Made by a program: the position numbers and the translations under genes
In this document: positions 7,601 through 62,870 of the stretch, in pieces
Numbering within the stretch: position 1 is the stretch's first letter
How the letters are laid out: each line of letters opens with the position of its first letter
The notes under the pieces: model-generated
Seen by the model: only the letters and a program-made list of their open reading frames with translations
Database searches by the model: none
What the model was told of the DNA's origin: nothing
DNA from: Bacteroidota bacterium
Lineage (GTDB): Bacteria > Bacteroidota > Bacteroidia > 2-12-FULL-35-15
Direction: 5' to 3'
NCBI GenBank assembly: GCA_025963725.1
Contig: JAOQAE010000006.1
Coordinates: 744,001 to 808,000 of the forward strand
Length of the DNA: 64,000 nt

Positions 7601-10600
7601 TCCTCGGGAACCAACCCTGTACCTTCCATCACAGGTACGGCAGGCGGGACCTTCAGCGCTTCACCGGCAGGACTGGGGTTTGTAAGCACATCCACAGGTG
7701 AGATCAATTTAGCATCCAGTGCCCTCAACACCTACACCATCACTTACACCACCCCGGGGCCTTGTGCAAGCAGCGCAACCGCAACCATCAGCATTTCCAA
7801 TGCCCCGGTGGCCACTTTCTCTTATTCAGGATCTCCGTATTGCCAGAATGGAACAGATCCATCACCTGCATTCAGCGGAGGAGGAACGGCAGGTACATTT
7901 ACATCTGCCGCCGGACTCAGCATTAACGCAGCTAACGGAACAGTGAACCTTGCCGCAAGCACGCCCGGAACATACACCGTTACCAATACGATCCCTGCAT
8001 CCGGCGGATGCGCTGCCGCAACAGCAACGGCAAGCATTACCATCAACCCGGTACAGAGCGCTGCATTCAGCTATTCATCGCCAACCTTCTGCCAAACCGG
8101 TGCTAACCCAACACCAACGATCACCGGCGCTGCCGGCGGAACATTCAGCTCAGCGCCCGCAGGATTGGTATTTGTAAGCACAGCAAGCGGTGAGATCAAC
8201 CTCGCTGCAAGCGGACTGAACACCTACACCATTACATACACCACTCCGGGCCCCTGCCCAAGCAGCGCCACGGCATCGGTTACCGTAAGCAACCCGACCC
8301 TTGCCACCATTAACTACAATGGCCCGTATTGCCAAGATGCCGCCGATCCATCACCGAACTTTGCGGCAGGGGCGAGCGCCGGGGCATTTACCGCTTCGCC
8401 GGCAGGACTGGTGTTTGTAAGTACATCAACCGGGCAGGTTGACCTTTCCGCCAGCACAGCCGGCACTTATACGGTTACCAATACAATTGCGGCTTCCGGC
8501 GGATGCCCCGCATCCACCGATACTGCCTCAGTCACCATCACCGCGCCCGCCGTTGCAAGCTTCAGCTACGCAGGCTCGCCGTATTGCCAGAGCGCAGCCA
8601 ACCCTTCACCTGCATTCAGCGGAGGCGGCATTGCAGGAACATTCACGCCATCTTCACCATCCCTGGTGTTTGTGAGCCCCTCAACCGGGCAGATCGATCT
8701 TGCAGCAAGCACGCCGGGAACATACACTGTTACCAATACAATTCCCGCATCCGGCGGATGTCCTGCAGTAACCGCTACTGCTAACGTCACCATCACCGCT
8801 CCGCAAACAGCGGGCTTCAGCTACACCGGATCACCATACTGCCAGAATGCGTCCAATCCCTTACCAACCTTCACCGGCAGCTCTGTAGCGGGTACATTCA
8901 GCGCGCCGGCCGGACTGGTATTTACAAGCACTGCCACGGGCGAAGTAAACCTTGCGGCAAGCACAGCCGGCACATACACTGTTACCAATACAATCCCCGC
9001 ATCGGGCGGATGCCCTGCTGTGGCCGCCACATCAACCATCACCATCAATCCTGCGCAGACTGCGGCATTCAGCTACAGCGGCTCCACCTTCTGCGTTTCC
9101 GGAACCAATCCAACACCAACGATCACAGGCACTACAGGAGGGACATTCACTTCTTCGCCTGCCGGGTTATCGTTTGTGAGCACAGCCACAGGCGAGATCA
9201 ACCTTGCGTCCACAGCGCTGAACACGTATACCATCACTTATACCACAGCCGGCCCCTGCGCCGCTGCCAGCTCGGTGTCGGTCACCGTGACCAATGCGCC
9301 TAATGCAACATTCAGCTACGCAGCATCTCCTTATTGCCAGTCGGCAGCCGATCCTGCACCTGTATTTGGCGCAGGAGCAAGCGGTGGTGTATTCAGCTCC
9401 ACGGCAGGCTTAATGATCAATGCAGGCACAGGCATCGTCGATCTTTCGGCAAGCACGCCGGGAACATACACGGTAACCAATACCATTGCTGCTTCGGGCG
9501 GATGTGCTGCCGCAAGCGCAACGGCAAGCATTACGATCAGCCCTTCACAAAATGCAGGATTCAGCTATTCCTCGGCTACGTTCTGCTCTTCGGGCGCCAA
9601 CCCATCGCCAACCATTACGGGCGTTGCGGGAGGCTCCTTCACTTCATCGCCTGCCGGGTTATCGTTTGTGAGCACAGCCACGGGCCAGATCAACCTTGCC
9701 GGAAGCGCACTGAACACCTACACGATCACCTATACCACACCGGGGCCATGCGCCGATTCAAGCGCAGTGAGCATCACCATTACAAATGCCCCTGTGGCTA
9801 CATTCAGCTACACAGGCACTCCGTACTGCGCCGGCGGCACCAATCCGCTGCCAACATTCAGCGGCGGAGGAACGGCAGGAATATTCTCCTCTACAGCCGG
9901 ACTGGTATTTGTGAACACATCAACGGGTGAGGTAGACCTCACGGCAAGCACACCGGGAACTTACACGGTTACCAATACAATTGCGGCATCAGGCGGATGT
10001 GCTGCCGCCACTGCAACTGCGGGCATCACCATCAACCCCTTGCAGAATGCGGCATTCAGCTACAGCGGCTCTACCTTCTGCTCTTCAGGAACCAATCCCG
10101 TAGCAACAATAACCGGCGCTCCGGGAGGAACTTTCAGCGCAGCGCCGGCGGGCCTCGTGTTTGTAAGCACTGCAACAGGCGAGATCAACCTCGCGGGAAG
10201 CGCGCTGAATACCTACACGGTAACCTATACAACACCGGGCCCATGCGCAAACACTTCGACGGCAAGCGTGACCATCACCACTTCACCGGCAGCAACCTTT
10301 AGCTATACGGCTTCACCGTATTGCCAGGGCGGCACCAACCCTTCGCCAACCTATAGCGGCGGAGGCAGCGCAGGCACATTCACCGCAAGCCCTGCAGGGC
10401 TAAGCATCAACGCTTCCAGCGGACTTGTTGACCTTGCAGCAAGCACGCCGGGAACCTACACCGTTACAAATACGATCGCTGCATCCGGCGGTTGTCCGGC
10501 AGCTTCGGCCACAGCCGGCATTACGATAAATGCACCGCAGGCAGCCACCTTCAGCTATACCGCTTCACCGTATTGCCAAAGCGGAACCAATCCTTCGCCA

Positions 10601-11773
10601 ACGTTCAGCGGCGGCGGCGTTGCAGGAACATTTACTGCAAGCCCTTCCGGCTTAAGCATCAATGCTTCCAGCGGACTGGTAAACCTCGCTTCGAGCACGG
10701 CGGGAACATACACTGTTACCAATACGATCGCGGCAACCGGCGGATGCCCTGCAGTTACTGCAATAGCAAGCATCACGATCAATCCTTTGCAAAATGCGGC
10801 ATTCAGTTATTCCGCGGCATCCTTCTGCCAGTCGTCGGCTAATCCAACGCCAACTATCACAGGTGTTGCAGGCGGAACATTCACTGCCTCGCCTTCAGGG
10901 TTGAGCATCAATGCAGGCACGGGAAGCATTGCCCTGAGCAGCAGCACGGTGAACACATATACCATCACCTACACCACGCCGGGCCCATGCGCCAGCTCAA
11001 GCACCGCCACAGTAGCGGTCACCACTGCGCCTGTTGCAGCAGCTACCGCAACGGCATCTGTATGTGCGGGGCAAACAGTCAGTTTTACATCTTCGGGCGG
11101 CGGCACCTACAGCTGGACAGGCCCGGGATTTAGCTCTGCGTCACAAAACCCGGTTATCAGCCCCGCGGATGTTTCCAACAGCGGAACTTACACGGTAACG
11201 GTAAACAGCGGCGGATGCTCTGATACCGCACAGGTAAGTGTTATCGTAAATCCATTGCCGGCAACCAATGCAGGTCCCGATGTAACCATCACACAAGGCG
11301 CAGGAACCAACCTTGCCGCATCGGGAGGCAGCTCCTACACCTGGACGCCGGCTGCAACACTCAGCTGCAGCAATTGTCCGGCCCCGGTGGCTACACCTTC
11401 AGTAACAACTACCTACTGTGTTACAACCAGCAGCGGCGGCTGTTCCGATAATGATTGCGTAACGGTTACAGTGGAGATCCCATGCAACACAAATAAGGAG
11501 CTCGGTGTGCCGAATGCTTTCTCTCCTAACAACGACGGCAACAACGATCTCTTCTGCCTGCAGGGCTGGAGCGCATGCATGAATGAGTTCAGCATCCTTA
11601 TCTACGACCGCTGGGGCGAAAAAGTGTACGAAGGCGGAGAGGCGGATTTCTGCTGGGACGGAACATTCAGGGGCAAAATACTTGATCCCGCCGTGTTCGT
11701 ATACTTCATCAAGGCAACTTACACTACCGGTGAAAAAGTAGTGAAGAAAGGAAACATTTCGATCATCCGTTAA
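1637..11773 (+). CDS. Giant repetitive T9SS type B cargo, SprB-like surface protein
   Basis: This 3378-residue protein is predicted to be secreted and anchored at the cell surface. It opens with a signal peptide ending near residue 29 (AFAQ). Two Cys-containing beta domains resembling pre-peptidase C-terminal modules follow (about 30-170 and 170-300), then a region of about 260 residues I cannot name. Next come one SprB repeat (about 575-645, with the PYTYAW and [13 protein letters not shown] motifs), an Ig-like segment and 29 tandem units (residues 723-3132). Two more Ig-like segments and a T9SS type B (gliding-motility-type) sorting domain end it; the latter shows [14 protein letters not shown] and [11 protein letters not shown]. 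The start is ATG 1637. The next gene encodes a PorP/SprF-family protein, the partner usually found beside type B cargo. By analogy with SprB of Flavobacterium johnsoniae, adhesion or gliding is likely, but this is inferred. Confidence 0.9.
3803..11032 (+). repeat. 29-unit tandem coding repeat array (about 252-bp period, two unit types)
   Basis: Inside the giant surface protein, 29 units follow one another without interruption. I count 22 type A units of about 84 residues, with the [12 protein letters not shown] and [16 protein letters not shown] motifs. Seven type B units of about 81 residues have [13 protein letters not shown] instead. The order is 7A-B-7A-B-A-B-3A-B-A-B-A-B-2A-B. Each unit carries two cysteines, one after the first aromatic residue and one near residue 68, which could form a disulfide. 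Adjacent type A units in the first half look most alike in the DNA, at an exact 252-bp spacing. This suggests recent amplification or gene conversion. Confidence 0.95.
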
Positions 11774-49436: not shown

Positions 49437-52400
49437 CTATTGCTGCGTTAAAAGTGTAACATGCCCGGTGAAATCGTGGTAGCGCTGCTCAAAGTCACGC
49501 ACGGTGATCTTATAAACATACACGCCTGATTCAGCCGTTCTGCTGCCATTGTTCGCTTTACCATCCCAGCCGGTCTGTATGTCTTCCGTCTGGTAGATCA
49601 TTTCTCCCCACCTGTCGAAGATCATCATTTTAAACTCGGAGATCTCTGAGCCTTTGGCTGTGAAATAATCGTTGGTGCTATTTCCGTCGGGCGTGAATGC
49701 ATTCGGAATATATATAGTGAACACAGGGCGCACCTCGATCTTACGAACGATGGTATCCATACAGCCCGCGATGCTGGAGGTATACAGCTTCACTTCGTAT
49801 TCGCCTTTATCCGCGTAAGTATGCTGCGGATCAGCGAGCGTTGATGTGCCGCCATCACCGAATTCCCATGCGTAGGAAACAGCATTCTGTGATTGATTAT
49901 AGAACTTATAGATCGGGCTGATGGTTGTTCCATCTATTCCTTCCGAGCTGAAATCCGCGATCGATCCCTGGTTCACCGTAATGTTGCAGGTGGTGGATGC
50001 AGTGTTCACACATCCGAAAGGAGATGTTACCGTGAGCGATACATTGTACAGGCCGGTGCTTCCATAAGTGTGTACCGGATGCTCGAGCGCCGATGCATAT
50101 CCATCGCCAAAATTCCAGTTGAACTGTGACGCGCTGTTCGCTCCTGAATTTTCAGCGAATGCAGCGTTGACTTCATTACATGCAACAAGTGTTTGCGGCG
50201 AAAGGTCTACCGTTGGAAGCGGGTTAACGGTTACCGGAACAGAGCCTGTAACGCTGTTTCCGCAGGCATCGGTAACTGTAACCGTATAGGTTGTTGTGGC
50301 AGGAGGTGAAACAGTGAACGGGCCGTTTCCTGTACCCAATCCGGCACTCCAGTTAACTGTTACCGGGCCGGTGCTTCCGCTCACCACAGAAGAAATCGTT
50401 GCGCTGCTTCCATAGCAGATCGCGGAAGCGCCACTTACCGTTAAGTTTGCCGCTGTTAATGATGTAACGTTTACCGACACTGTTGACACAGGGCTGATGC
50501 AACCGTTCGCATCCATCGCGGTAACGCTGTACGTAGAAGGCGATACAGGACTTACCGTTTGGCTTGCACCCGATCCAATGCCGCTCCAGTTATAGGTATA
50601 TGCACCGGTACCGCCCGAAGCTGCTGCAGTGATGCCGGTATTTTGTCCGAGGCAAATAGTTGTGGAGCCCGATGCGTTTACCGTTAAAGGCGCAGGCTGC
50701 GTAACTGCAAGGCTCGAAGCCAGCATACATCCGTTGCCATCGGTTACGGTGATCGAATATGTTCCCGGGCATAATCCGGTGGCACTCGCGCTGGTTCCGC
50801 CTGTAGGCATCCACTGGTACGAATAGCCGGGGGTTCCGCCCGAAGGGATCACCACCGTTTGTCCGTTGCAGGCGCCGTTACAGGTTACGGGATATGCGGC
50901 AGATGCGATTGCTAATGCCGGCGGCTCTGTAATAGTAATGTATGAATTGGCAATGCAGTTATTCGCATCGCTTACGGTCACGAAATAATTTCCGGGAGCA
51001 AGTCCGCTTACGGATTGCGTGTATTGTGCGGGGCTTGTGCTCCACATGTAGCTGTATGTCCCTGTACCGCCTGATGCGCCTACGGTTGCATAGCCATCCG
51101 CAAGGCCGTTACAGGTCACGTTGCTTACCACCATACCGTTTGCGGTAAGCGCAGGAGGCTCTGCAATTGTTATGTTCGCGGTGGTGCTGCAGCCATTGGC
51201 ATCGGTGATGAGCGCCGAATAATTACCGGCTGCAAGGTTGGTGGCTGTGGCTGTAGTCTGCACCGGGCTTGTATTCCAGCTGTAGGCATAAGCTCCGGTT
51301 CCGCCCGAAGGTGTTACTGTTGCAGAGCCGTTGCTGCTGCCGGAGCAGGTAACATTGGTTTGAGATGAGGTATAGCCCACAGGAGCAACAGGCTGTGAAA
51401 TGACCACAGCGCCGTTGGTGGTGCAGCCGTTCGCAGTGGTGACTGTTACACTGTATGTTCCAGGTGCGAGTCCGCTTATGGCCGACGTGGTGGCGCCATT
51501 CGACCACAGGAACGTATAGGGTGGCTGTCCGCCGCTCACATTCGCAGTTGCAGCGCCATTCGCAGCGCCATAGCAGGAAACGCCGGTGGAGTTGATCACG
51601 AGGTTAGCGGGTGTTGCACCATTTGAAACCACAGCAGTGGCAGAGCTTGTACAGCCTCCGCTGCCTGTTACATTCACGGTGTAGGTCCCGGCAGAAAGCC
51701 CGTTCTGGTCATAATTAGTGCCGCCACCGATCCATTGATACGCGTACGGCCCTGTTCCGGCAAGCACCTGCACTTCGGCAGTACCGTTGGAAGCGCCGCA
51801 ATTGGCAGGGGTTGTGGAGGTAGTGAGCGTTAAGCCCGATACGGTGATGCAGAAGGAGAATGTCTGGCTGCCGTTATACGGGCAGTTATCATCCTGCACT
51901 GTTACGGTAAAGCAATGAGAAGCAGTGCTGATGTCGGCAGCAGTTGGTGTCCAGCTGAATGTGCCTGTAGGGCGAAATCCTGCAGAAGCGCTGAATGAAG
52001 CGCCTGAAATTCCGCTGTTCCAGTTGATGGAAACATTCTGAGCAGAGTCTATATCATAGGTTGAGATCACAAAGTTAAGGGGCACGCCGGCGCAGGCCGT
52101 GAGTGAATAAGTCCCGGTATTATTGATCCCGTTCACATACGGGTTGTTATTGGTGCAGCTCATGGTGCGCAGCTGGATGTCGCGCATTACGCTGCCTACG
52201 AGCACTTCGCTTCTCCATTCCTGCACAAGCACTGCAAACACGGTTACTTCGATCATGGTTGGCGACATGCACATATCGCCGGAAGCACTATTGAATGTTA
52301 CTGCAGGGGATGATACAAGCGGCTGTGAAGCCGAGTATGGCGGGTTATACGTTACGGTGGTTGTTGCGCTTGTCCTTGGCGCGATGAGCGTATAGGACAG

Positions 52401-52997
52401 GGAATCGCCGTCGATATCGGACGAGCCGTTATTGAAGCAATAGGGTTGTCCCACGCAAACAAAGGGGATCGGGGGATTAGAGAATGTAGGTGAGCTGTTG
52501 CATGGAAAATCCAGGTTGTTCAGCAATGCTTCCACATAAATGTTTTCCGCAGAGGGATTCACAATTGTGTTGATGGACGCATTCCTGCAGCAGAGGCTGA
52601 AGCTGAATGTCCAGTCGGTGCAGGCCATCGGCAAGGTAATGACGCCGCTGTATTTATATTCCTGCACTCCGGGATATGCTCCGCCCGAACATTGTGTGTT
52701 CATGGAGGCACAGATAGGTGAAACTTCTATCCCGGTGCCCGGTAGCTGGTTTAATGTAAGTGTTAAATTTTGTCCGCACGATGCGGAAGAAATATTTATC
52801 GTGGCTGTAGTTGGAGCTGCTACTCCCGCGCAGTCGCGGTAAAAGGAGAGAGAGATCTTGTATTGGTTTCCGCCGAGGCACTGGTAGGTAATATCAGCGC
52901 TTTGGGCGTGTGATGCAAATGCTTCATTCTGTGACTGAATGAACATTACAATGAAACTGATCCAAAAGAAAACCCTGTGAGTAAGTTGTGTATTCAT
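49437..52997 (-). CDS. T9SS type B cargo with SprB and PKD repeats
   Basis: The 1186-residue protein has a signal peptide (to about residue 28) and an N-terminal region to about 390 with many cysteines. Five SprB repeats follow (about 395-705; each with a Cys-NG-A motif, a Y-x-Y-x-W pair and GLAPGTYSVTVTxANGC), then two Ig-like segments (700-880) and two PKD domains with FNWNFGDG and YAWEFGDGG (about 890-1080). A type B gliding-motility-type sorting domain ends the chain (IPNAFTPDGNSTNDYF, FDRWGEMIYQTED). It should be exported by T9SS. Nothing identifies its ligand. The gene lies 175 bases downstream of the phosphatase cluster. Confidence 0.9.
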   Translation of the reverse strand: MNTQLTHRVFFWISFIVMFIQSQNEAFASHAQSADITYQCLGGNQYKISLSFYRDCAGVAAPTTATINISSASCGQNLTLTLNQLPGTGIEVSPICASMNTQCSGGAYPGVQEYKYSGVITLPMACTDWTFSFSLCCRNASINTIVNPSAENIYVEALLNNLDFPCNSSPTFSNPPIPFVCVGQPYCFNNGSSDIDGDSLSYTLIAPRTSATTTVTYNPPYSASQPLVSSPAVTFNSASGDMCMSPTMIEVTVFAVLVQEWRSEVLVGSVMRDIQLRTMSCTNNNPYVNGINNTGTYSLTACAGVPLNFVISTYDIDSAQNVSINWNSGISGASFSASAGFRPTGTFSWTPTAADISTASHCFTVTVQDDNCPYNGSQTFSFCITVSGLTLTTSTTPANCGASNGTAEVQVLAGTGPYAYQWIGGGTNYDQNGLSAGTYTVNVTGSGGCTSSATAVVSNGATPANLVINSTGVSCYGAANGAATANVSGGQPPYTFLWSNGATTSAISGLAPGTYSVTVTTANGCTTNGAVVISQPVAPVGYTSSQTNVTCSGSSNGSATVTPSGGTGAYAYSWNTSPVQTTATATNLAAGNYSALITDANGCSTTANITIAEPPALTANGMVVSNVTCNGLADGYATVGASGGTGTYSYMWSTSPAQYTQSVSGLAPGNYFVTVSDANNCIANSYITITEPPALAIASAAYPVTCNGACNGQTVVIPSGGTPGYSYQWMPTGGTSASATGLCPGTYSITVTDGNGCMLASSLAVTQPAPLTVNASGSTTICLGQNTGITAAASGGTGAYTYNWSGIGSGASQTVSPVSPSTYSVTAMDANGCISPVSTVSVNVTSLTAANLTVSGASAICYGSSATISSVVSGSTGPVTVNWSAGLGTGNGPFTVSPPATTTYTVTVTDACGNSVTGSVPVTVNPLPTVDLSPQTLVACNEVNAAFAENSGANSASQFNWNFGDGYASALEHPVHTYGSTGLYNVSLTVTSPFGCVNTASTTCNITVNQGSIADFSSEGIDGTTISPIYKFYNQSQNAVSYAWEFGDGGTSTLADPQHTYADKGEYEVKLYTSSIAGCMDTIVRKIEVRPVFTIYIPNAFTPDGNSTNDYFTAKGSEISEFKMMIFDRWGEMIYQTEDIQTGWDGKANNGSRTAESGVYVYKITVRDFEQRYHDFTGHVTLLTQQ

Positions 52998-53172: not shown

Positions 53173-55257
53173 TCAGATCCTCAGGCCGATAATAACCACA
53201 TCATCTACCTGCTCGAGATCACCTTTCCACTGATCGAAGCGGGTTTCAATAACATTGCGCTGCTCCTGCACAGGCAGCGTGGAAATAGACACGAGCAATT
53301 CTTTCAGCTGGTTGTATTTGAATTTTTTTCCTTTGGGGCCACCGAACTGATCGGCATAGCCATCGCTGTAGAGATACACGCAATCGCCTTTTTTCAGCTG
53401 GATGGTGTGATTTGTATAGTTATCTACCTTGCCGCCGATGTTCACTCCTATCGGGAACTTATCGGCTTTGATCTCATTGAGAATACCATTGCTTACATAA
53501 TACAATGAATTGAAAGCGCCTGCATATTCGAGCTCCAGCGTTTTTTTATTGAGCGAGCAAAGGGAAAGGTCCATTCCGTCCTTCACGCCTTTTCCTTCTT
53601 CCGACTGCCGGAGTGTTTTTGTTACGCCTGCATCGAGGTGCCTTAAAATATCGGAAGGCTTCAGGAGGTTCACTTCGTTGATGGCCTGTGTGAGCAGGTT
53701 AAAGCCTACAACGCTCATCAGCGCGCCCGGAACGCCATGCCCGGTACAATCCACAGCAGCGAAGCATACCACATCGCCTTTTTGTTCGATCCAGTAAAAA
53801 TCGCCGCTTACAATATCTTTCGGCCGGTAAAAGATAAAGCTGTCGGGAAGCATCCTGTGCCATGCCTCTGCCGGCGGCAGGATCGATTCCTGGATCCGCT
53901 TTGCATAATTAATGCTATCGGTGATCTCCTTCTTCTGCAATGTGATCTCCGAATTTCTGTGCTCAAGCAGCTGGTTGGCGCGCTGCTTCAGCTTGTAACG
54001 GTTATAGAATAATGCTGCAAGAACGATCACCAGCAGGATCACAACCAGCAGCACGATCATCCACAATTTATTTTTATTCAGCTCCAGCGCCTGGATCTGG
54101 CTATCCTTGGTGAGCAGCTCGATCTCCTTTTGCTTTTTTTCGCTTTCATATTTTGTTTGCATCTCTGCCATTTCCTTGGCGCTGCCTTCCTTAAAAAGAC
54201 TGTCTTTTATTTCGCCATACAGCTGCTGGTATTTAAAGGCCTGCCTGTAATCGTTCTGGTCGGCGTACACTTTCGCCATGGTGCCGTACACCGCCTTCAT
54301 GCCTTCCTTCCTGTTGCTTGCCTTACAGATCTCAAGGGCTTTCCCGAGGTATTCCATTGCCTCCGCTTTCCTGTTGAGATACAGCAATGAGCCTGCAAGG
54401 TTGATGTAGCAGGTGGAGATGCTGCTGTTATCCCTGATCCGCTTTTTTACTTCCAGCGCCTTAAAGGTATACTCCATCGCCTTCTCATATTTTTTTAGCT
54501 TATCGTAGATCATCCCGATATTCATATTGCAGGTGGAAGCACCGGCCTCATCATGCAGGGAATCATAAATAGCCAGGGACCTTTCATACTGACGCAGCGC
54601 CATAGAATCGTTCTGCTTATCCCAGTATGCATTTCCGATATTGATATAGCTTGCCGCCACCCCGGCCCTGTTGTGCAGCTTATCCCAAATCTTTAATGCC
54701 TTGGTATGATAAAAAACGGTGAGCGCAAAATTACTTTGTGAATCGTAGATGTTGCCGATGGCGCTGTAGTTCTTTGCCATGCCTTCCTCATCCTTCAGCT
54801 CTTCCCTCAGCTTCAGCGAGCGGAACTGGTAGCTGAGCGCAACAGGCAGATCGCCGGTAGCGCGGTAAATGAGCCCGATGTTACCGTAGCATTTTGCAGC
54901 GCCTGCCTTATCGTCGAGGCTTATGAAGATCGCGAGCGCTTTTTGGAATTCATCGCGGGCTGCCATATAATCGCCGTGCTGCCAGAGGATGACACCGATA
55001 TTGTTATGCGCGTTGGCAGCGCCTTTTTTAAAACTGATCTCTTCCGCAAGCTTCAATGCAGCACGCGCCATCTCTTCAGCTTTTTCAGGAGCCTTCTGCA
55101 AATACGCGCGGCTGAGGTCGTTCCGGAGGTTCACCTTCAGCGTATCGACCGTAGTTTCATTCAGCAGCTGCTCGAGTGAATCCGTTTTCTTTGGCTGCGC
55201 GATAACAAGCGTGTGCAGGAAAAAAAGGCTGATCTGTATAAAAATAATTTTTCGCAT
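53173..55257 (-). CDS. TPR sensor with SpoIIE/PP2C-type phosphatase domain (4th gene of cluster)
   Basis: The 694-residue protein has a signal peptide (1-20), a periplasmic TPR domain (about 40-350, seven repeats), a membrane helix (about 398-417), a helical linker and a cytoplasmic SpoIIE-type PP2C domain (about 470-694). Catalytic motifs are complete: SGDFYW (486), DCTGHGVPGA (503-512), KDGMD, SDGYADQFGG and the final EQVDD. The linker KKEITDSINYAKRIQESILP is shared by all four proteins here. The phosphatase probably acts on a serine or threonine phosphoprotein. It is read last, eight bases after the preceding gene. Confidence 0.92.
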   Translation of the reverse strand: MRKIIFIQISLFFLHTLVIAQPKKTDSLEQLLNETTVDTLKVNLRNDLSRAYLQKAPEKAEEMARAALKLAEEISFKKGAANAHNNIGVILWQHGDYMAARDEFQKALAIFISLDDKAGAAKCYGNIGLIYRATGDLPVALSYQFRSLKLREELKDEEGMAKNYSAIGNIYDSQSNFALTVFYHTKALKIWDKLHNRAGVAASYINIGNAYWDKQNDSMALRQYERSLAIYDSLHDEAGASTCNMNIGMIYDKLKKYEKAMEYTFKALEVKKRIRDNSSISTCYINLAGSLLYLNRKAEAMEYLGKALEICKASNRKEGMKAVYGTMAKVYADQNDYRQAFKYQQLYGEIKDSLFKEGSAKEMAEMQTKYESEKKQKEIELLTKDSQIQALELNKNKLWMIVLLVVILLVIVLAALFYNRYKLKQRANQLLEHRNSEITLQKKEITDSINYAKRIQESILPPAEAWHRMLPDSFIFYRPKDIVSGDFYWIEQKGDVVCFAAVDCTGHGVPGALMSVVGFNLLTQAINEVNLLKPSDILRHLDAGVTKTLRQSEEGKGVKDGMDLSLCSLNKKTLELEYAGAFNSLYYVSNGILNEIKADKFPIGVNIGGKVDNYTNHTIQLKKGDCVYLYSDGYADQFGGPKGKKFKYNQLKELLVSISTLPVQEQRNVIETRFDQWKGDLEQVDDVVIIGLRI

Positions 55258-55265
55258 ATCCGTTT

Positions 55266-57500
55266 CTAAAAGCTAAGCTTAATTCCAATGACAAGGATGT
55301 CGTCCACCTGCTCTACATTTCCCTGCCAGCTTTCCAGGCTCCTCTCAAGCCTTTCTCCCTGCTGTTCCATCGGCAGCGGCTGCAGCTCTATCAACAACTG
55401 GTTAAGCCGCTTCACCATGAATTTTTTCCCAAGCGACCCGCCGAACTGATCTGCATAGCCATCAGTAGTCATGTAAATACTGTCGTTGTCCTGAATGCGG
55501 ATCTCGTGGTTCTGAAATTTTTTATCCTCAATGAGCTTATGCCCGCCAATGGCAGATTTGGTCGGCTTGATCTCGTCAAGCGCATCGTTGCGCACAATGT
55601 ACAGCGACCTGTTAGCGCCGGCATATTCGAGAATGCCTCTTTTAAGATCGATGGAGCAGAGCGCCAGGTCCATGCCGTCCTGCGTTCCATTATCAGCGAG
55701 ATCCTGCTTCAGCGACTGTCTTACGCGCTCATTCAGAAGATCGAGGATCTCCGATGGTTTTTCGATCCCCTTTTCATTCACGATCTCATTCAGCAGCGTG
55801 TTCCCGATCATGCTCATGAATGCGCCGGGAACACCGTGGCCTGTGCAATCCACACAGGCAATTATGTTCTTATCGCCGCGCCTTGCGTACCAGTAAAAAT
55901 CGCCGCTCACCACATCGCGCGGCTTAAAGAGCACGAACGACTGCGGGAATGCGGCCTGAATCTCCTTCCTAACGGGAAGGATCGACTCCTGGATGCGCTT
56001 TGCATAATTGATGCTGTCGGTGATCTCCTTGTTCTTATGCTCGATCACACTTTTCTGCCCGAGCACCTCTTTATTGAACTCCTGCAGCTGTATGTTCGCT
56101 TTTTTGCGCTGCGCCATGCTGCGGAGAATAAAACCCACAAGGAACAGCAGCAGTACGATACCTACGATAGAGCTGTAGCTCAGGAGCTGCTGGCGCTTTA
56201 ACTTCTCATCGGCAAGCGTTTCCTTGTTCTTCTGCATGAGCTCCTGCTCTTTTTGCTGCACATCGAAACGGTAGTTGAGCTCCAGCTCGGTGAGCCTTCT
56301 TGTATTGTCGGCATTGTAAACAGAATCGTTGAACTGCTTGTACAGCTTAAAATTATCATACGCCTTTTTATAATCATTCAGCGCCTCATAGGTTCTTGAC
56401 ATGCCCAGATGGATCTCGATCAGGTCTTCCCAGGAACTGATCTCTTCTGCGATCGCCAGCGCCTTCGAGTAATATTCAATGGCTTTTGAATACTGCTTCA
56501 ATGCATAAAAGGAAGTGCCGATGGCACTGTAACAGATGGTGAGCCCCTGCTTATCGCCAATCTTTTCAAAAAGTCCGACCGCCCTGAACTGGTATTCAAG
56601 CGCTTTTTCATTTTCACCCATATCGGCGTACACATTACCGATATTGCCGAGGGCGCCGGCATAGATCTTCCCGTCGCTCTTCTCAACAAGCCGCAGCACC
56701 TGCTCATACGATTCAATGGATTTCTCATAGCGCTTGCCGTAGTAATGGCTGTTGCCGATGAACATATCCACCTCTACAAGCAGCGCTGTGTCTGACTGCT
56801 GCCAGGCGATCTCCTGCGCGCGCCTGAAATAATCAAGGGCATAATCTTCGTTCTTTGTTTCGCTGTATGCTGAGCCGATGTACAGCATGATCTGCGCGAC
56901 GTTCTTTTTATGTCCCAGTTTTTCCGCGATCACCAGCGCCTGCTGAAGCTTTGCAAGCCCTTTGGGCCGGTTGCCCGACTGGTTCAGCACCATGCCCATA
57001 CCCATGAGGTCTTCGCAGAGCAGGCGATCATTCTTATCCAGCGCAGCGAGCTCGGTGGCCTTTTCGAAGGCCGACAAGGCCTGCGGATAGCTGCCGCGGT
57101 CCATGTGAAGATTCCCGATGCTTGTGTAGCACTCCGCCAGCTCCGAACGCACGTTGAAGCGCTTCAGCAGTGCGGTGGCTTGTGTGAACTCTACCAGCGC
57201 AGAATCACTGTATCCCTGGATGAAAAGATAATTTCCCCTTAAAAAGCAGGTGATGCCGATCTTTGCACTGTCATTCATCCGCTCTGCGGTGGCTTCGGCA
57301 TCTGCAATATATTTCCAGGCTTTTTCAGGATCGGGATGTACGGTTGCAGTCACAAGCGCGCGCTGCAGGCCGAAGCGCTCATTATCATCTTTTGCCTTGC
57401 CGAGCTGCTGCTCGAGGCTGTCGGTTACCGATGCAAATTTTTCCGCGAAGCTGCCGCTATAACAACAGGCAAAAAGAAAGAGGATTAAATATTTTTTCAC
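55266..57500 (-). CDS. TPR sensor with SpoIIE/PP2C-type phosphatase domain (3rd gene of cluster)
   Basis: I choose GTG 57500 (MKKYLILFLFACC; 744 residues). TTG at 57509 is also open but would put three extra residues before the signal peptide. Periplasmic TPRs (about 60-370) lead to a membrane helix SIVGIVLLLFLVGFIL (about 445-460), the linker NKEITDSINYAKRIQESILP, and the phosphatase domain with SGDFYW, DCTGHGVPGAF, QDGMD, TDGYADQFGG and EQVDD intact. The QFGGSLGKKF variant differs from the QFGGPKGKKF of its three neighbours. It starts 31 bases after the preceding gene's stop. Confidence 0.92.
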   Translation of the reverse strand: MKKYLILFLFACCYSGSFAEKFASVTDSLEQQLGKAKDDNERFGLQRALVTATVHPDPEKAWKYIADAEATAERMNDSAKIGITCFLRGNYLFIQGYSDSALVEFTQATALLKRFNVRSELAECYTSIGNLHMDRGSYPQALSAFEKATELAALDKNDRLLCEDLMGMGMVLNQSGNRPKGLAKLQQALVIAEKLGHKKNVAQIMLYIGSAYSETKNEDYALDYFRRAQEIAWQQSDTALLVEVDMFIGNSHYYGKRYEKSIESYEQVLRLVEKSDGKIYAGALGNIGNVYADMGENEKALEYQFRAVGLFEKIGDKQGLTICYSAIGTSFYALKQYSKAIEYYSKALAIAEEISSWEDLIEIHLGMSRTYEALNDYKKAYDNFKLYKQFNDSVYNADNTRRLTELELNYRFDVQQKEQELMQKNKETLADEKLKRQQLLSYSSIVGIVLLLFLVGFILRSMAQRKKANIQLQEFNKEVLGQKSVIEHKNKEITDSINYAKRIQESILPVRKEIQAAFPQSFVLFKPRDVVSGDFYWYARRGDKNIIACVDCTGHGVPGAFMSMIGNTLLNEIVNEKGIEKPSEILDLLNERVRQSLKQDLADNGTQDGMDLALCSIDLKRGILEYAGANRSLYIVRNDALDEIKPTKSAIGGHKLIEDKKFQNHEIRIQDNDSIYMTTDGYADQFGGSLGKKFMVKRLNQLLIELQPLPMEQQGERLERSLESWQGNVEQVDDILVIGIKLSF

Positions 57501-57531
57501 AACGTTCAAAGTTCAACAATTTTTTTGAGTG

Positions 57532-59679
57532 CTACACACGAATGCCAACTATCAGGATATCATCCACCTGCTCGAGGCCGGTTCTCCATTCTTCTATTGT
57601 TGCATCGAGGATGGCCTTCTGCTCGGCCATCGGCTTCGTATGGTGCTCCAGCAGCAGTTCCTGCAGCTTCTTATACTTGAATTTTTTTCCTTTCGGGCCG
57701 CCGAACTGGTCGGCATAGCCATCCGTGAACAGGTAGATCACATCGCCTTTGCGCAGCCCGAGCGTTTGTTTGCTGAAGGGCTTCTGCTCACCGTGATACA
57801 TTCCTACGGGCATTTTGTCGGCGGCAAATTCTTTCAGCTCATTGTTGCGGATCAGCCAGAGCGGGTTGTTGGCGCCTGAAAAGCGGAGCCACATGCCTTT
57901 GAGATCGAACACGCAGAGTGTGGCATCCATTCCGTCCCTGGTTTGTTCCTCCGAGCCTGCGGGGTTGAGCGAGCTGATGATCTGCGTGCGCACATGGTCG
58001 AGCACCAGCTCCGGCGACTGCAATTTTTTCTCGATCACGGCCTGGTTCAAAAAGGAAATGTTGAGCAGGCTCATGAATGCGCCGGGAACACCGTGGCCTG
58101 TACAATCGGCAACAGCGAGGCAGAATGATTCCTTTTCGCTGCCTTCCGGCTTCATTGGGGTTGCCCAGTAAAAGTCGCCGCTTACAATATCCTTGGGCTT
58201 GTTGAGCACAAAATATTCAGGAAGGTATTGCTGCAAAAGTGTATCGGAGGCGAGCAGGGCGCGCTGGATCCTCCGGGCATAAAAAATGGAATCGGTGATC
58301 TCCTTGCTTTTTTCTTCAACGAGATCGCGCTGCAGCTCCACTTCTTTTTTCTGAGCGGAAATAATTTCGTTCGACCTGTGCTTCTGGCGATAGCTTCTGA
58401 AAATAAAAACAGCCAGCAGGGATACGAGCAGGAAGCCAATTGCAAAAAAGATCTTCTGCATATTCTGCTGCCTTACCTGCAGCTCCGCTTTCCCGAGTGT
58501 TTCTTTCTGAAGCGCATTGTCCTTGTTGAGGCTTGCGATCTGCATCTGCTTTTTCTCATCCTCGTACTTCGCTGCCATCTCTGTTACCTGGAGGCTGTTT
58601 TCTGAGGTAAGGATCGAATCCTTTATGCGGAACAGAAGCTGTTGCGTATTGAAGGCCTTCAGGTAATTTCCCTGCGCGGCATAGCACAATGCGATCTTTT
58701 CATACACGCTTACAAGATCGATCTGTGAGCCGGTTTCTTCGGAAAGTGCAAGGCTTTTTTCAAGATAGGAAAGCGCGAGCGCATAATTCTTTTTCTCGTA
58801 ATACACCATTCCCATTCCATCATAGGAGACCGCCTGGCTCATCTTATCCTCGTTAGGCCCTGAATAAGAAAGCGCTTTTTTATAAAATTCCAGCGCTTCA
58901 TCATATCTTCCTTTTTTCGAAAGAATGATGCCGGTATTGTTCAGGGTGCTCGACAATCCCCTTGGATAATATATCGCCTCTTTCATAGCGATCGACATCC
59001 GGTAATACGCAAGCGCTTCATCGAGCTTCTCCTGCAGGTCGAGCACGGTGCCGATGTTATTGTAGGCGGAAGCAATTCCGATTGAATCCTTATTGGCCGT
59101 GAACATCTCCAGGCTTTTCCGGTAATACCGCATGGACTCGTTGTAGCTGTGCATGTCCTTGTAGATCCCGGCCAGTCCGCTGTAAACGCTCGGCAGTGTT
59201 TTTTTGTCGCCGATCTCTTCCAGCAGCTTCTGTGATTCGAGGTATTCTTTTGCAGCCTGCTCATACTTCGCTGTGAAATAATAGATGAGCCCGATGTTGA
59301 AATGCGCTTTTGCGATCGCGGATTTATTTTTGGACTTTTCCAGGATCTCAAGGCTTTTCCGGTAGTTAACAAGGCTGTTCTCAAAATCGCGCTTATAGCC
59401 ATAAACAGTGCCTAAGGCCGCATAGGCATCCGAAACAAGCAGCTGATTTTTATTTGTGCCGTATTTCTTCAGGTCGGTTTCCGCGAAGTATTTGGCTGAA
59501 TCGAGGTCGATGGCGAGGTATTCATAGGCCAGCTCGTAATACGCATGCATCTTCAGCGTGTCGTTCCCGGGAGATGCAAGGATCTTTTTGAGGCTGTCGG
59601 CCGCAGGAGTTTGCGCCGCAAGAAAAAGCGGCAGGCAGAAAAAGAAAAGTACGATCCTGTTTTTCATGTGTTTCATCAT
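57532..59679 (-). CDS. TPR sensor with SpoIIE/PP2C-type phosphatase domain (2nd gene of cluster)
   Basis: The 715-residue protein is read from ATG 59679, whose first base is the last base of the upstream gene's TGA (TGATG overlap); an ATG at 59667 is an alternative. A signal peptide, about eight TPRs (about 45-340), a helix near 415-435 (KIFFAIGFLLVSLLAVFIF), then SKEITDSIFYARRIQRALL and the phosphatase domain follow. SGDFYW, DCTGHGVPGAF, RDGMD, TDGYADQFGG and EQVDD are all present, so it should be active. The 1-base overlap indicates translational coupling with the propeller gene. Confidence 0.93.
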   Translation of the reverse strand: MMKHMKNRIVLFFFCLPLFLAAQTPAADSLKKILASPGNDTLKMHAYYELAYEYLAIDLDSAKYFAETDLKKYGTNKNQLLVSDAYAALGTVYGYKRDFENSLVNYRKSLEILEKSKNKSAIAKAHFNIGLIYYFTAKYEQAAKEYLESQKLLEEIGDKKTLPSVYSGLAGIYKDMHSYNESMRYYRKSLEMFTANKDSIGIASAYNNIGTVLDLQEKLDEALAYYRMSIAMKEAIYYPRGLSSTLNNTGIILSKKGRYDEALEFYKKALSYSGPNEDKMSQAVSYDGMGMVYYEKKNYALALSYLEKSLALSEETGSQIDLVSVYEKIALCYAAQGNYLKAFNTQQLLFRIKDSILTSENSLQVTEMAAKYEDEKKQMQIASLNKDNALQKETLGKAELQVRQQNMQKIFFAIGFLLVSLLAVFIFRSYRQKHRSNEIISAQKKEVELQRDLVEEKSKEITDSIFYARRIQRALLASDTLLQQYLPEYFVLNKPKDIVSGDFYWATPMKPEGSEKESFCLAVADCTGHGVPGAFMSLLNISFLNQAVIEKKLQSPELVLDHVRTQIISSLNPAGSEEQTRDGMDATLCVFDLKGMWLRFSGANNPLWLIRNNELKEFAADKMPVGMYHGEQKPFSKQTLGLRKGDVIYLFTDGYADQFGGPKGKKFKYKKLQELLLEHHTKPMAEQKAILDATIEEWRTGLEQVDDILIVGIRV

Positions 59680-62600
59680 CAAATGCGTATTCCTATCACC
59701 AGCACATCGTCCACCTGCTCGAGCTCACCCTGCCAGTCGTCATTTGTTTTCCGGAGAATCTCCTTTTGTTCAGCCATCGGCTTCTCATGAATGCTGAGGA
59801 GCAATTCCTGGAACTGCTTGTACTTGAATTTTTTTCCTTTCGGGCCACCGAACTGATCTGCAAAGCCATCGGTGAAAATATAAATGCAGTCGCCGCGCTG
59901 GATCTCCCATTCGTGGTTGGTGAAGCGCTGCAGCTCCTCTCCTACAAATGCGCCGATCGGGAACTTATCGCCATTGATCTCGATCACCTGTCCCTTTCGT
60001 ATGATCCACAAAGGATTGTTGGCGCCGGCAAATTCCATGGTCGACTTTTTATAATTGATCGCGCAGAGCGCAATGTCCATTCCATCGCGCACGGTGGCTT
60101 CCTCCGGATCCTGGTTCAGCTTTTTTGAAAGCTGGCTGTTGGTTTCATTGAGGATGAGCGCGGGTTTTGCAAGCCCGAGCACATTCACGGTTTGTGTGAG
60201 TATGTTGTGCGCAACAATGCTCATGAATGCTCCCGGCACCCCATGCCCCGTGCAATCCACTGCGGCAATAAGGGTTTGCGGGCCCCATTGCTCGAGCCAG
60301 TAGAAGTCGCCGCTTACAATGTCCTTCGGCTTGTAGAACACGAATGATTCGGGCAGCAGCTGTTTTATGGTTGAATCGGCAGGCAGGATGGCTTCCTGGA
60401 TGCGCTTTGCATAATGGATGCTATCGGTGATGTCCTTGTTCTTTTCATCGATCTCGGAATACGCAATCTGCAATTTTTCCTTTTCCTCGAGCAGCTCCTT
60501 GGTCCTGATCGCCACTTCCTCCTTGAGCCGCCGCCTGCTTCGCTGCAGGTTCTGCTCACGCATCTTCACGAAGGCATAGATGAGCGAGACGCCGATGATG
60601 ATGGAGATGATGTAGAACCAGGGCCGCTTCCAGAAGGGAGGCACGATCTCGAATGAATAGGTGGCAGGCTGCGCGTTCCAGATGCTATCGCTGTTGCATG
60701 CTTTCAGCAGGAACGTGTATTTTCCGGGAGGCAGGTTCGAGTACGTTGTGCTGGTTTCCTTGCCTTCGGGCAGCCAGTCCTTATCGAAGCCCTGCAGCAT
60801 GAACCTGTACCTCACTTTTTCCGGGATGGACTGCGACACGCCCGCAAAATCGAAGGTGATGTGATTTTTGTCGTACGGCAGCACAAGGTTCACCGGCAAC
60901 CCCTTCTGCGTGCTGTCGGAATACTTGCTGAAATCCACCGATTCGAGGAAGAGGCGGATGTTGGTGATCTGCGTTTGAGGCGCCACTTTATTTTTCTGCT
61001 CACAATCAGGGTTGTAAATAGTAACACCGTCGATGGTGCCGATCCAGAGCTTTCCATCCACATCGCGGTAAAAAGCGTTCTGGTTACATTCGAGGCCGAT
61101 GAACCCTTCCTCTTTTCCGTAATGCTTCAGCTTCACTTCCTTCTGGTTCACATAAGCGTTAATGTCGAGCCTGTCGATCCCGTTATTGGTGCCGATCCAG
61201 AGGTAGCCGTTATCGTCGGCATTCACATAATACACGGTGTTGGAGCTTAATCCGTTGAGCTCATTGATGGTGATGAACTTTTTTCCGTTATACACCGCCA
61301 CGCCGAGGTCGGTACTGATCCAGGTGTACCCGAGATGATCGCGCACCAGGTTGCGGATCCGCGGAAAGCCTTCGGGGCGCGTGATAGAGGTGAATTTTTT
61401 TCCATCGTACTTCGTGATCTTATCCGGCGAGCCGAACCAAAGGTCGCCGAAATTATCCTCGTAGATCGCATTCACGCCCTGGTTCGAAAGCCCATCCTTC
61501 ACACTGTACTGCGTGAATGTTTTGCCATCGTACATATCCACGCCATTCTCATTGGCAAGCCACACATTTCCCTTCCGGTCGGTAAGCATATCGGGAATGC
61601 GGATCCCGTGCAATCCTTGTTTTATATGGTAATTCGTAAATTTTTTCCCGTCGAACACGCTCAGCCCGGCCGAAGAAGTGCCGAACCAGATATTTCCTTT
61701 TTTATCTTCCGTGATGGACCATACATTGTTGTAGATCAACCCGTCTTTCTGGCTGTAATTGGTAAACACAGCGGTATCGGCCTTTTTGCTTTCGCTGTAA
61801 TTGAATTTTGAAACGCCGCCGCCCCAGGTGCCGATCCAGAAATTATCCTTGCTGTCCTTGAAGACCGACATCACCGTATTGTTTACCAAACCGTGATCCT
61901 CATTGAAGTTAATGAAGAGGTCGTTCTTGTATTTGCTTACGCCGCCTGCAAAGGAGCCGAACCACATGTTACCTTCACGGTCCTGCGTAATGGCATCTAC
62001 CAGGTTGCCGCACAAACCGTTTGCCCGGGTGATACTGCGGGTTTTGCCATAGGTGATCTTCAGCACACCCTTGGCCGTTCCTGCCCATACATTGCCAAGC
62101 GAATCCCTGAAGAGCTTATATACCGTTTCAGAGAACTGCTTTTCGCTGATGATCTTAAACGACTGCGTTCCGGTGTATGCCTTTGAAGGATCGTACTCAT
62201 GAATGCCGCGATAGCTGCTTACCCACACCTTATCATCGTTAATGAGGATATCGCGGATGCGGAGGTCCGACAAGCCATCCTTCATCGTAAAATGCTTCAT
62301 GGTTTTGCCATCGTAGCAGAACACGCCGTTGAGCATGGTTGCGATCCAGGTATTGCCGAGCTTGTCCTGCTTGATCGACCATACCTGGTAGCTGCCGATG
62401 GAATCATTGCGCGGAAAGCTTTTGAACTTTTTGCCATCGTACAGCACAATTCCGTCGCTGGTTCCGATCCATGTGTTTCCGTCGCTGTGCTTGTAAAAGC
62501 AGTAAATGCCGGTTTCCCGGACGAGCGCGTCCTTAAACTGGTAGATCTTTTTATTGTATAAGCGGCTGAGGCCTTTTGTGGTGCCTATCCAGATGTTCCG

Positions 62601-62870
62601 GTCATCGTACTCAAAAACGGAGAACACGCGGTTGTTGCTGAGCCCGTCGCGGGTGCTGTAATTGGTAAAGTGAAGTCCGTTGAAGCAGCTTACGCCGCCG
62701 CCATTGGTAGCAAACCACATGTTGCCGTTATGGTCCTGCAGGAGGTCGATGATCTGGGATTGCGGGAGCCCGTCCTCGATGGAATAATTCTTAAAATTGA
62801 GCAATTGGGCATTGGCGGCTATGCAAATGCAAAAGAGGAAAACGGATATGTACGATCTTTTAAAGTGCAC
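59679..62870 (-). CDS. HTCS-like double propeller sensor fused to SpoIIE/PP2C phosphatase (1st gene of cluster)
   Basis: The 1063-residue protein starts at GTG 62870, the only start after the in-frame TAA nine bases upstream. A signal peptide (to about 21) is followed by 14 propeller blades (about 30-640; pattern GNxWxGTxxGG-x-YDGKxF), read as two seven-bladed propellers. A Y_Y_Y domain (about 670-745), a membrane helix (about 755-775) and a linker with NKDITDSIHYAKRIQEAILP come next, then a phosphatase domain (about 850-1063) with SGDFYW, DCTGHGVPGAF, RDGMD, TDGFADQFGG and EQVDD. Hybrid two-component sensors of Bacteroidetes use the same periplasmic layout but a histidine kinase. The ligand is unknown. 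Confidence 0.93.
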   Translation of the reverse strand: MHFKRSYISVFLFCICIAANAQLLNFKNYSIEDGLPQSQIIDLLQDHNGNMWFATNGGGVSCFNGLHFTNYSTRDGLSNNRVFSVFEYDDRNIWIGTTKGLSRLYNKKIYQFKDALVRETGIYCFYKHSDGNTWIGTSDGIVLYDGKKFKSFPRNDSIGSYQVWSIKQDKLGNTWIATMLNGVFCYDGKTMKHFTMKDGLSDLRIRDILINDDKVWVSSYRGIHEYDPSKAYTGTQSFKIISEKQFSETVYKLFRDSLGNVWAGTAKGVLKITYGKTRSITRANGLCGNLVDAITQDREGNMWFGSFAGGVSKYKNDLFINFNEDHGLVNNTVMSVFKDSKDNFWIGTWGGGVSKFNYSESKKADTAVFTNYSQKDGLIYNNVWSITEDKKGNIWFGTSSAGLSVFDGKKFTNYHIKQGLHGIRIPDMLTDRKGNVWLANENGVDMYDGKTFTQYSVKDGLSNQGVNAIYEDNFGDLWFGSPDKITKYDGKKFTSITRPEGFPRIRNLVRDHLGYTWISTDLGVAVYNGKKFITINELNGLSSNTVYYVNADDNGYLWIGTNNGIDRLDINAYVNQKEVKLKHYGKEEGFIGLECNQNAFYRDVDGKLWIGTIDGVTIYNPDCEQKNKVAPQTQITNIRLFLESVDFSKYSDSTQKGLPVNLVLPYDKNHITFDFAGVSQSIPEKVRYRFMLQGFDKDWLPEGKETSTTYSNLPPGKYTFLLKACNSDSIWNAQPATYSFEIVPPFWKRPWFYIISIIIGVSLIYAFVKMREQNLQRSRRRLKEEVAIRTKELLEEKEKLQIAYSEIDEKNKDITDSIHYAKRIQEAILPADSTIKQLLPESFVFYKPKDIVSGDFYWLEQWGPQTLIAAVDCTGHGVPGAFMSIVAHNILTQTVNVLGLAKPALILNETNSQLSKKLNQDPEEATVRDGMDIALCAINYKKSTMEFAGANNPLWIIRKGQVIEINGDKFPIGAFVGEELQRFTNHEWEIQRGDCIYIFTDGFADQFGGPKGKKFKYKQFQELLLSIHEKPMAEQKEILRKTNDDWQGELEQVDDVLVIGIRI

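Follow-up and report, generated by a model that had tools for sequence, protein, structure and literature searches.

Four adjacent SiaA-type sensor phosphatase genes as the probable input layer of an expanded SiaABC-type partner switch in a Bacteroidota bacterium

The stretch of DNA analysed here, hereafter the window, spans 64 kb of a Bacteroidota genome (G000:C6:744001-808000; 4.79 Mb in 7 contigs, 97.9 % complete) and carries an operon of four adjacent genes, g1 to g4, that encode membrane proteins ending in a phosphatase domain of the PPM/SpoIIE fold. Our analysis suggests, with a probability that we put at about 0.83, that the four products are SiaA-type membrane sensor phosphatases that supply the inputs to a threonine partner switch of the SiaABC type, with SiaB and SiaC encoded elsewhere in the genome. 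In Pseudomonas aeruginosa, SiaA dephosphorylates Thr68 of SiaC, SiaB phosphorylates the same residue, and SiaC in its unphosphorylated form turns on the diguanylate cyclase SiaD (PMC7647112, PMC7278518, PMC8457831). A preliminary description of the window had presented the operon as an orphan of unknown kind, its anti-sigma or STAS partner still to be found. That view is not supported here: the genome encodes both SiaB and SiaC, the most likely partners, and SiaABC is already described in P. aeruginosa (PMC7647112, PMC8457831).

Results

The assignment begins with the phosphatase halves. A profile built from 42 linker and PPM modules of G000 matched P. aeruginosa SiaA (PDB 6K4E) with an E-value of 6.6e-70, covering both linker and domain, and gave weaker matches to SpoIIE (2e-7), RsbX (3.6e-6) and RssB (1.1e-5). 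The NCBIfam SiaA model in turn recognized all four window proteins: g1 (2.4e-65, amino acids (aa) 763-1063), g2 (2.4e-50, aa 443-716), g3 (3.6e-65, aa 486-744) and g4 (7.9e-60, aa 422-694). When the AlphaFold2 (AF2) model of the g1 linker and PPM module was searched with Foldseek, the SiaA phosphatase structure 6k4e ranked first (E 4.9e-26; template modelling score 0.92 by target length, root-mean-square deviation 1.7, 34 % identity), followed by SpoIIE (3e-13). In the domain tree, P. aeruginosa SiaA nests in one clade with g1 to g4 and their paralogues (support 0.86), and the canonical RsbU-like protein of G000, RssB and SpoIIE fall apart from it. Canonical RsbU-like proteins of relatives score 33-62 bits with the profile and have neither the linker motif nor the GGxxGKK loop discussed below. 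By sequence and predicted fold, the linker and phosphatase of g1 to g4 are thus of the SiaA kind, not of the RsbU/SpoIIE kind.

The linker motif ITDSIxYAxRIQ is found in all four proteins, and the 42 aligned paralogues all have the S, I, Y and Q of SIxYAxxIQ. The "shared signalling helix" of the preliminary description corresponds, in its sequence, to the SiaA-family linker (KKIGDSLDYASLIQRAILPD in SiaA). All metal-binding and catalytic Asp positions of the PPM domain are likewise invariant in the 42 rows, in agreement with the earlier statement that the catalytic motifs are intact in all four genes.

Two SiaB and two SiaC proteins are encoded in G000. The first pair (G000:C4:73876-74812) lies downstream of two SiaA-type genes, in a locus (L244) whose order is a SiaA-type gene of 468 aa, a SiaA-type propeller gene of 1100 aa, a lipoprotein-like gene, siaB and siaC, all on the same strand; the second pair is at C6:126027-126985 (L246). 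SiaC1 is well above the Pfam SiaC cut-off (157.9 vs 24.5 bits) and retains the phosphorylated Thr68, aligned in NTSS with SiaC, and SiaB1 exceeds the NCBIfam SiaB-family cut-off (170.9 vs 85) and aligns with the catalytic Glu of the ExxQN motif retained. In most of 20 further siaC loci that we read, siaB and siaC adjoin SiaA-type genes. The SiaB kinase and the SiaC phosphoprotein encoded outside the window are the most likely partners of the window phosphatases.

Co-occurrence across 59 related genomes points the same way. With a presence threshold of E <= 1e-30, SiaA-type modules are present in 48 of the 59 genomes and absent from 11, and SiaB divides the sample identically, occurring in each of these 48 and in none of the 11 (Fisher p = 3.6e-12). 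Counting each family once, SiaB occurs in 15/15 families with SiaA-type modules vs 0/9 without (p = 7.6e-7). The presence of SiaC agrees with that of SiaA-type modules in 57/59 genomes.

The same sample bears on a classical RsbU-type arrangement, in which g1 to g4 would remove phosphate from an RsbV-like STAS protein, with the result that a sigma factor is released from an RsbW kinase. The necessary proteins exist: G000 has two small STAS proteins (DSSGL, NSSGL) and three RsbW-sized HATPase_c_2 proteins, and a small STAS protein is found in 55/55 relatives having any SpoIIE-domain protein. However, these proteins do not appear to track SiaA-type modules. Of the 11 genomes that lack such modules, small STAS proteins persist in 7 and RsbW-like proteins in 5, in genomes whose only phosphatase of this fold is a canonical RsbU-like protein of ~410 aa; STAS group A, and usually also group B, is retained in these canonical-only genomes. 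Because they persist in this way, the RsbV/RsbW set appears to be the partner of the canonical RsbU-like protein rather than of g1 to g4, and STAS and RsbW were rejected as the probable partners. The RsbU-STAS-RsbW operons of two relatives (G183 and G049) likewise employ a phosphatase that is not of the SiaA kind and has neither the motif of the linker nor the GGxxGKK loop, and both sequence and fold favour SiaA over the RsbU type by many orders of magnitude. We therefore consider the RsbU-type arrangement highly unlikely. The preliminary description had suggested looking for a co-occurring STAS or anti-sigma gene; STAS and RsbW are in the genome, and SiaB follows the SiaA-type modules (48/48 with, 0/11 without). 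Compact RsbU-STAS-RsbW operons with a multi-spanning RsbU-like protein, distinct from the SiaA-type system, occur in two other Bacteroidota families (L193:1330-4224 and L195:2514-5446).

The window phosphatases are part of a large set. G000 encodes 45 SpoIIE-domain proteins, one of which is a canonical soluble RsbU-like protein (C7:1521395, 408 aa); the other 44, including one divergent and one short copy, are of the SiaA linker and loop type. The sensor halves among the 45 comprise 22 TPR, 10 propeller/Y_Y_Y and 2 GAF domains. Relatives of the same genus have from 1 to at least 47 SpoIIE-domain matches, with first-look candidates reaching 89 in one relative among the matches listed, and among 148 genomes sampled evenly from the phylum the maximum in any other genome was 18 matches and 21 candidates. 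Further SiaA-type clusters in G000, one of four genes (C1:197389-205685) and two of three (C4:658294-662448 and C7:1674443-1680578), mean that the window operon is not unique in kind. Recent tandem duplication was rejected as its origin, as the PPM domains of g1 to g4 sit in different subclades of the tree, each with a closer G000 relative elsewhere.

This abundance of phosphatases against two SiaC (22.5 to 1, the highest ratio of the sample) suggests convergence on few substrates. A non-catalytic loop, DQFGGxxGKKFK, shows almost no variation among 42 paralogues that differ in their sensors, as would be expected for a shared substrate, and it aligns with a SiaA loop implicated in SiaC docking: the flexible loop of SiaA at G611-F612, lost in a non-aggregating mutant, was modelled as docking on SiaC (PMC7647112). 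In PPM phosphatases, substrate choice is set by three variable loops (PMC11418112). If the paralogues had instead diverged in substrate, each phosphatase would have its own target and there would be no convergence, as might be read from the different subclades of g1 to g4 and from the up to 15 SiaC copies in other genomes of the genus. In G000, however, only two SiaC stand against ~44 phosphatases, and the docking-type loop is almost invariant, whereas substrate-contacting loops vary where PPM substrates differ (PMC11418112), so that we regard such divergence as very unlikely. The multi-input pathway converging on a common phosphoprotein, as proposed in the preliminary description, is thus supported by ~44 phosphatases facing two SiaC and two SiaB and by the near-invariant loop.

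The output appears to differ from that in Pseudomonas. No GGDEF protein is encoded in G000, and only two of the 59 genomes (G149 and G153) have one; SiaD was therefore rejected as the effector. When the neighbours of 39 siaB/siaC loci were clustered, the most widespread non-Sia families were a ~1030-aa ABC transporter (13 loci, 6 families; ABC_tran and ABC2_membrane domains, some copies also having a TerB-like N-terminus) and a ~298-aa lipoprotein-like protein, p298 (12 loci, 6 families). Gene order is SiaA-SiaB-SiaC-ABC-p299-p144 on a single strand in L252 and SiaA-SiaB-SiaC-ABC-p301 in L281, and the ABC gene is co-directional with siaC in L264 and L269. As the ABC protein takes, in siaC operons of several families, the place that SiaD has in Pseudomonas, this transporter, with its lipoprotein-like partner, is the best candidate for the effector of SiaC.

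Several observations weigh against this picture. Over the C-terminal half only, g1 to g4 reach 172-221 bits and so miss the full-length cut-off of the NCBIfam SiaA model (700 bits), because their sensor half differs; the label "SiaA-type" is therefore used here in place of SiaA orthologue. The SiaA residues F612 and R652, which contact phosphorylated SiaC in published modelling, are not conserved as identical letters, with K and V/I/L at these positions, although K for F612 would be compatible with co-variation in SiaC. In SiaC2 a Ser replaces Thr68. The window operon has no siaB or siaC neighbours, and it is homology and co-occurrence that tie it to both. The SiaC pattern has two exceptions, G155 with SiaC alone and G167 without SiaC, both incomplete (76 and 87 %), and the sampled genomes, being related Bacteroidota, are not independent. 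In G000 the three genes of the ABC set (C4:81416-85976) lie 6.6 kb from siaC1 on the other strand.

The architecture of the operon (Table 1) bears out the preliminary description of four adjacent genes with sensor, membrane helix, shared linker helix and complete phosphatase, as judged from open reading frames (ORFs), Pfam domains (Reg_prop, Y_Y_Y and SpoIIE in g1; TPR and SpoIIE in g2, g3 and g4) and hydropathy, which places a single strong membrane helix ahead of each linker. The four signal peptides described earlier are matched by an N-terminal hydrophobic stretch in g1, g2 and g4, and the N-terminus of g3 is hydrophobic yet below threshold. Of the reported gaps of -1, 31 and 8 bases only the last stands; the longest ORFs give -4, 22 and 8, the first two values having differed because internal ATG (g2) and GTG (g3) codons were chosen as starts. 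The window has no STAS gene, as reported, and siaB and siaC genes were likewise not found within its 64 kb. A promoter and terminator scan of the operon gave no excess over shuffled sequences (10 vs 10.8; 13 vs 12.5). The four genes are presumably read as a single transcript. The AF2 model of full-length g4 (mean predicted local distance difference test (pLDDT) 81.0, predicted template modelling score 0.49) shows a TPR solenoid, a long helix and the PPM domain in this order; a single continuous helix (359-459) spans membrane segment and linker, which is only suggestive at a pLDDT of ~50-60 over much of its length.

Table 1. Genes, linker helices and phosphatase domains of the operon, in positions of the window
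Feature	Position	Strand	Description
g1, SiaA-type sensor phosphatase, 1063 aa	59679..62870	-	N-terminal hydrophobic stretch, Reg_prop propeller + Y_Y_Y, membrane helix (~aa 752), linker, PPM
g2, SiaA-type sensor phosphatase, 716 aa	57532..59682	-	TPR sensor, membrane helix (~aa 410), linker, PPM
g3, SiaA-type sensor phosphatase, 747 aa	55266..57509	-	TPR sensor, membrane helix (~aa 448), linker, PPM
g4, SiaA-type sensor phosphatase, 694 aa	53173..55257	-	TPR sensor, membrane helix (~aa 398), linker, PPM
Linker helix of g1 (KNKDITDSIHYAKRIQEAILPA)	60378..60443	-	One helix (2-55) in AF2 model of linker + PPM module, mean pLDDT 95.9
Linker helix of g2 (KSKEITDSIFYARRIQRALLAS)	58246..58311	-	Linker motif
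Linker helix of g3 (KNKEITDSINYAKRIQESILPV)	55971..56036	-	Linker motif
Linker helix of g4 (QKKEITDSINYAKRIQESILPP)	53872..53937	-	Linker motif
PPM/SpoIIE-fold phosphatase domain of g1	59685..60278	-	Pfam SpoIIE 3.3e-20; AF2 module compared with SiaA-PP2C 6k4e
PPM/SpoIIE-fold phosphatase domain of g2	57535..58131	-	Pfam SpoIIE
PPM/SpoIIE-fold phosphatase domain of g3	55278..55865	-	Pfam SpoIIE
PPM/SpoIIE-fold phosphatase domain of g4	53179..53775	-	Pfam SpoIIE

The search for this layout in other genomes, proposed in the preliminary description, recovered it in relatives. All four genes are kept in L098 (identities 94/91/85/84 % for g1/g2/g3/g4) and L101 (73/64/59/54 %), and L099 and L100 have three genes each, without an orthologue of g3; the second gene of L099 has an identity of only 45 % with g2. 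To judge from this gene content, g3 has been gained or lost between relatives. The ratio of nonsynonymous to synonymous substitution rates (dN/dS) against the closest relative (L098) is 0.04-0.09 for each gene, the synonymous rate against L101 being saturated for g2 to g4. All four genes are under strong purifying selection, and these ratios, together with the intact catalytic residues, rule out decay of some operon copies.

Discussion

We infer from sequence the enzymatic activity of g1 to g4, SiaC as their substrate, the linker mechanism, the signals and the effector, and propose the following mechanism. The propeller/Y_Y_Y or TPR domain of each of the four proteins most likely detects a separate signal from the periplasm or envelope. 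This signal would be relayed by the membrane helix and coiled-coil linker, which would stabilise a PPM dimer, by analogy with RsbU-type phosphatases (PMC12143880) and the SiaA dimer (PMC7647112); a transmitting role of the linker fits what has been published on related PPM phosphatases (PMC12143880). The dimer would then strip the phosphate from SiaC Thr68, a step consistent with the presence of the partners, the retained phosphosite and the co-occurrence. SiaB, a DUF6272 GHKL-like kinase, would re-phosphorylate SiaC and reset the switch, and unphosphorylated SiaC would bind an effector, probably, from gene order, the ABC protein. Many phosphatases would in this way converge on few switch proteins, the two SiaB-SiaC pairs.

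The proposed system resembles SiaABCD of P. aeruginosa (SiaA PP2C, SiaB kinase, SiaC DUF1987, SiaD diguanylate cyclase; PMC7647112, PMC8457831) in its membrane-anchored SiaA, the linker start DSxxYAxxIQxAILP, the PPM fold, the catalytic Glu of SiaB, Thr68 of SiaC in NTSS and the siaA-siaB-siaC order seen at the C4 locus and in relatives. It differs in its sensors (propeller/Y_Y_Y, TPR and others), in its ~44 SiaA to 2 SiaC, in its SiaA-only operons and in having no SiaD or GGDEF protein, the SiaD position being taken in some relatives by the ABC transporter and the lipoprotein-like gene. With the RsbU/RsbV/RsbW and SpoIIE/SpoIIAA/SpoIIAB switches it shares a PPM phosphatase, activated through a coiled-coil linker, that works against a GHKL-type kinase on a STAS-like protein (PMC12143880); the fold of SiaC is likewise STAS-like (PMC8457831). 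Phosphatase subfamily, kinase family (DUF6272) and phosphoprotein family (SiaC, with Thr instead of Ser) are, however, different, and no sigma factor is linked to the genes here, although no search aimed at sigma factors was made. The sensor halves recall the propeller/Y_Y_Y and TPR sensor histidine kinases of Bacteroidota, with Reg_prop-Y_Y_Y-His_kinase proteins in L248 and L282 and a TPR half similar to that of FimS, but the output half of g1 to g4 is a PPM phosphatase.

To call the operon an undescribed kind of system was accordingly too strong, and a much expanded, differently wired SiaABC describes it better. A literature search, with subscription papers mostly outside its reach, found no description of this operon layout or of SiaABC in Bacteroidota. 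What is novel is the number of inputs, ~22 phosphatases per SiaC, and an output without cyclic di-GMP (c-di-GMP). More tentatively, SiaABC in these Bacteroidota may have been uncoupled from c-di-GMP and may control a TerB-like/ABC-2 transporter with its lipoprotein-like partner. Dozens of different sensors of the envelope, 44 in G000 and perhaps more in a relative with up to ~89 SpoIIE-domain candidates, would then feed one or two SiaC, as a many-to-one Ser/Thr counterpart of a histidine-kinase network.

These findings offer an identity and a testable substrate for a very large anonymous class of proteins, annotated only as SpoIIE-family phosphatases with propeller or TPR domains. They suggest that SiaABC signalling, far from being a Pseudomonas biofilm speciality, serves some Bacteroidota as a major sensory system, and they predict that in the absence of any c-di-GMP enzyme SiaC has a new effector in the form of an ABC transporter. 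They also raise the question of how ~44 phosphatases sharing two substrates carry separate information.

Additional observations

In several relatives (L264-L281) SiaB is often doubled, either as a 365-404-aa protein with two DUF6272 domains or as two consecutive siaB genes, and one SiaC (L264:4859-5962) has a 247-aa N-terminal extension. Near the second SiaB-SiaC pair of G000 (L246:956-8986, G000:C6:118955-126985) lie a DUF7793/SpoIIAA-like gene, a MASE1-PAS histidine kinase and an 808-aa protein with a receiver-like N-terminus, a neighbourhood that could possibly link SiaC to two-component signalling.

A soluble, divergent SiaA-type protein of 289 aa is encoded 3.3 kb past the window end (L035:16331-17197, minus strand; G000:C6:811330-812196). 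It keeps the FGGxxxKKF loop and has AHMEG in place of DGMD, at a metal-site Asp position, and is possibly a pseudophosphatase; in the tree it clusters with P. aeruginosa SiaA, perhaps through long branches.

Within the window, two type IX secretion substrates with CHU_C C-terminal signals were observed, a 1186-aa SprB-repeat/PKD protein just downstream of the operon (49437-52997, minus strand) and a 3378-aa repeat protein (1637-11773, plus strand).

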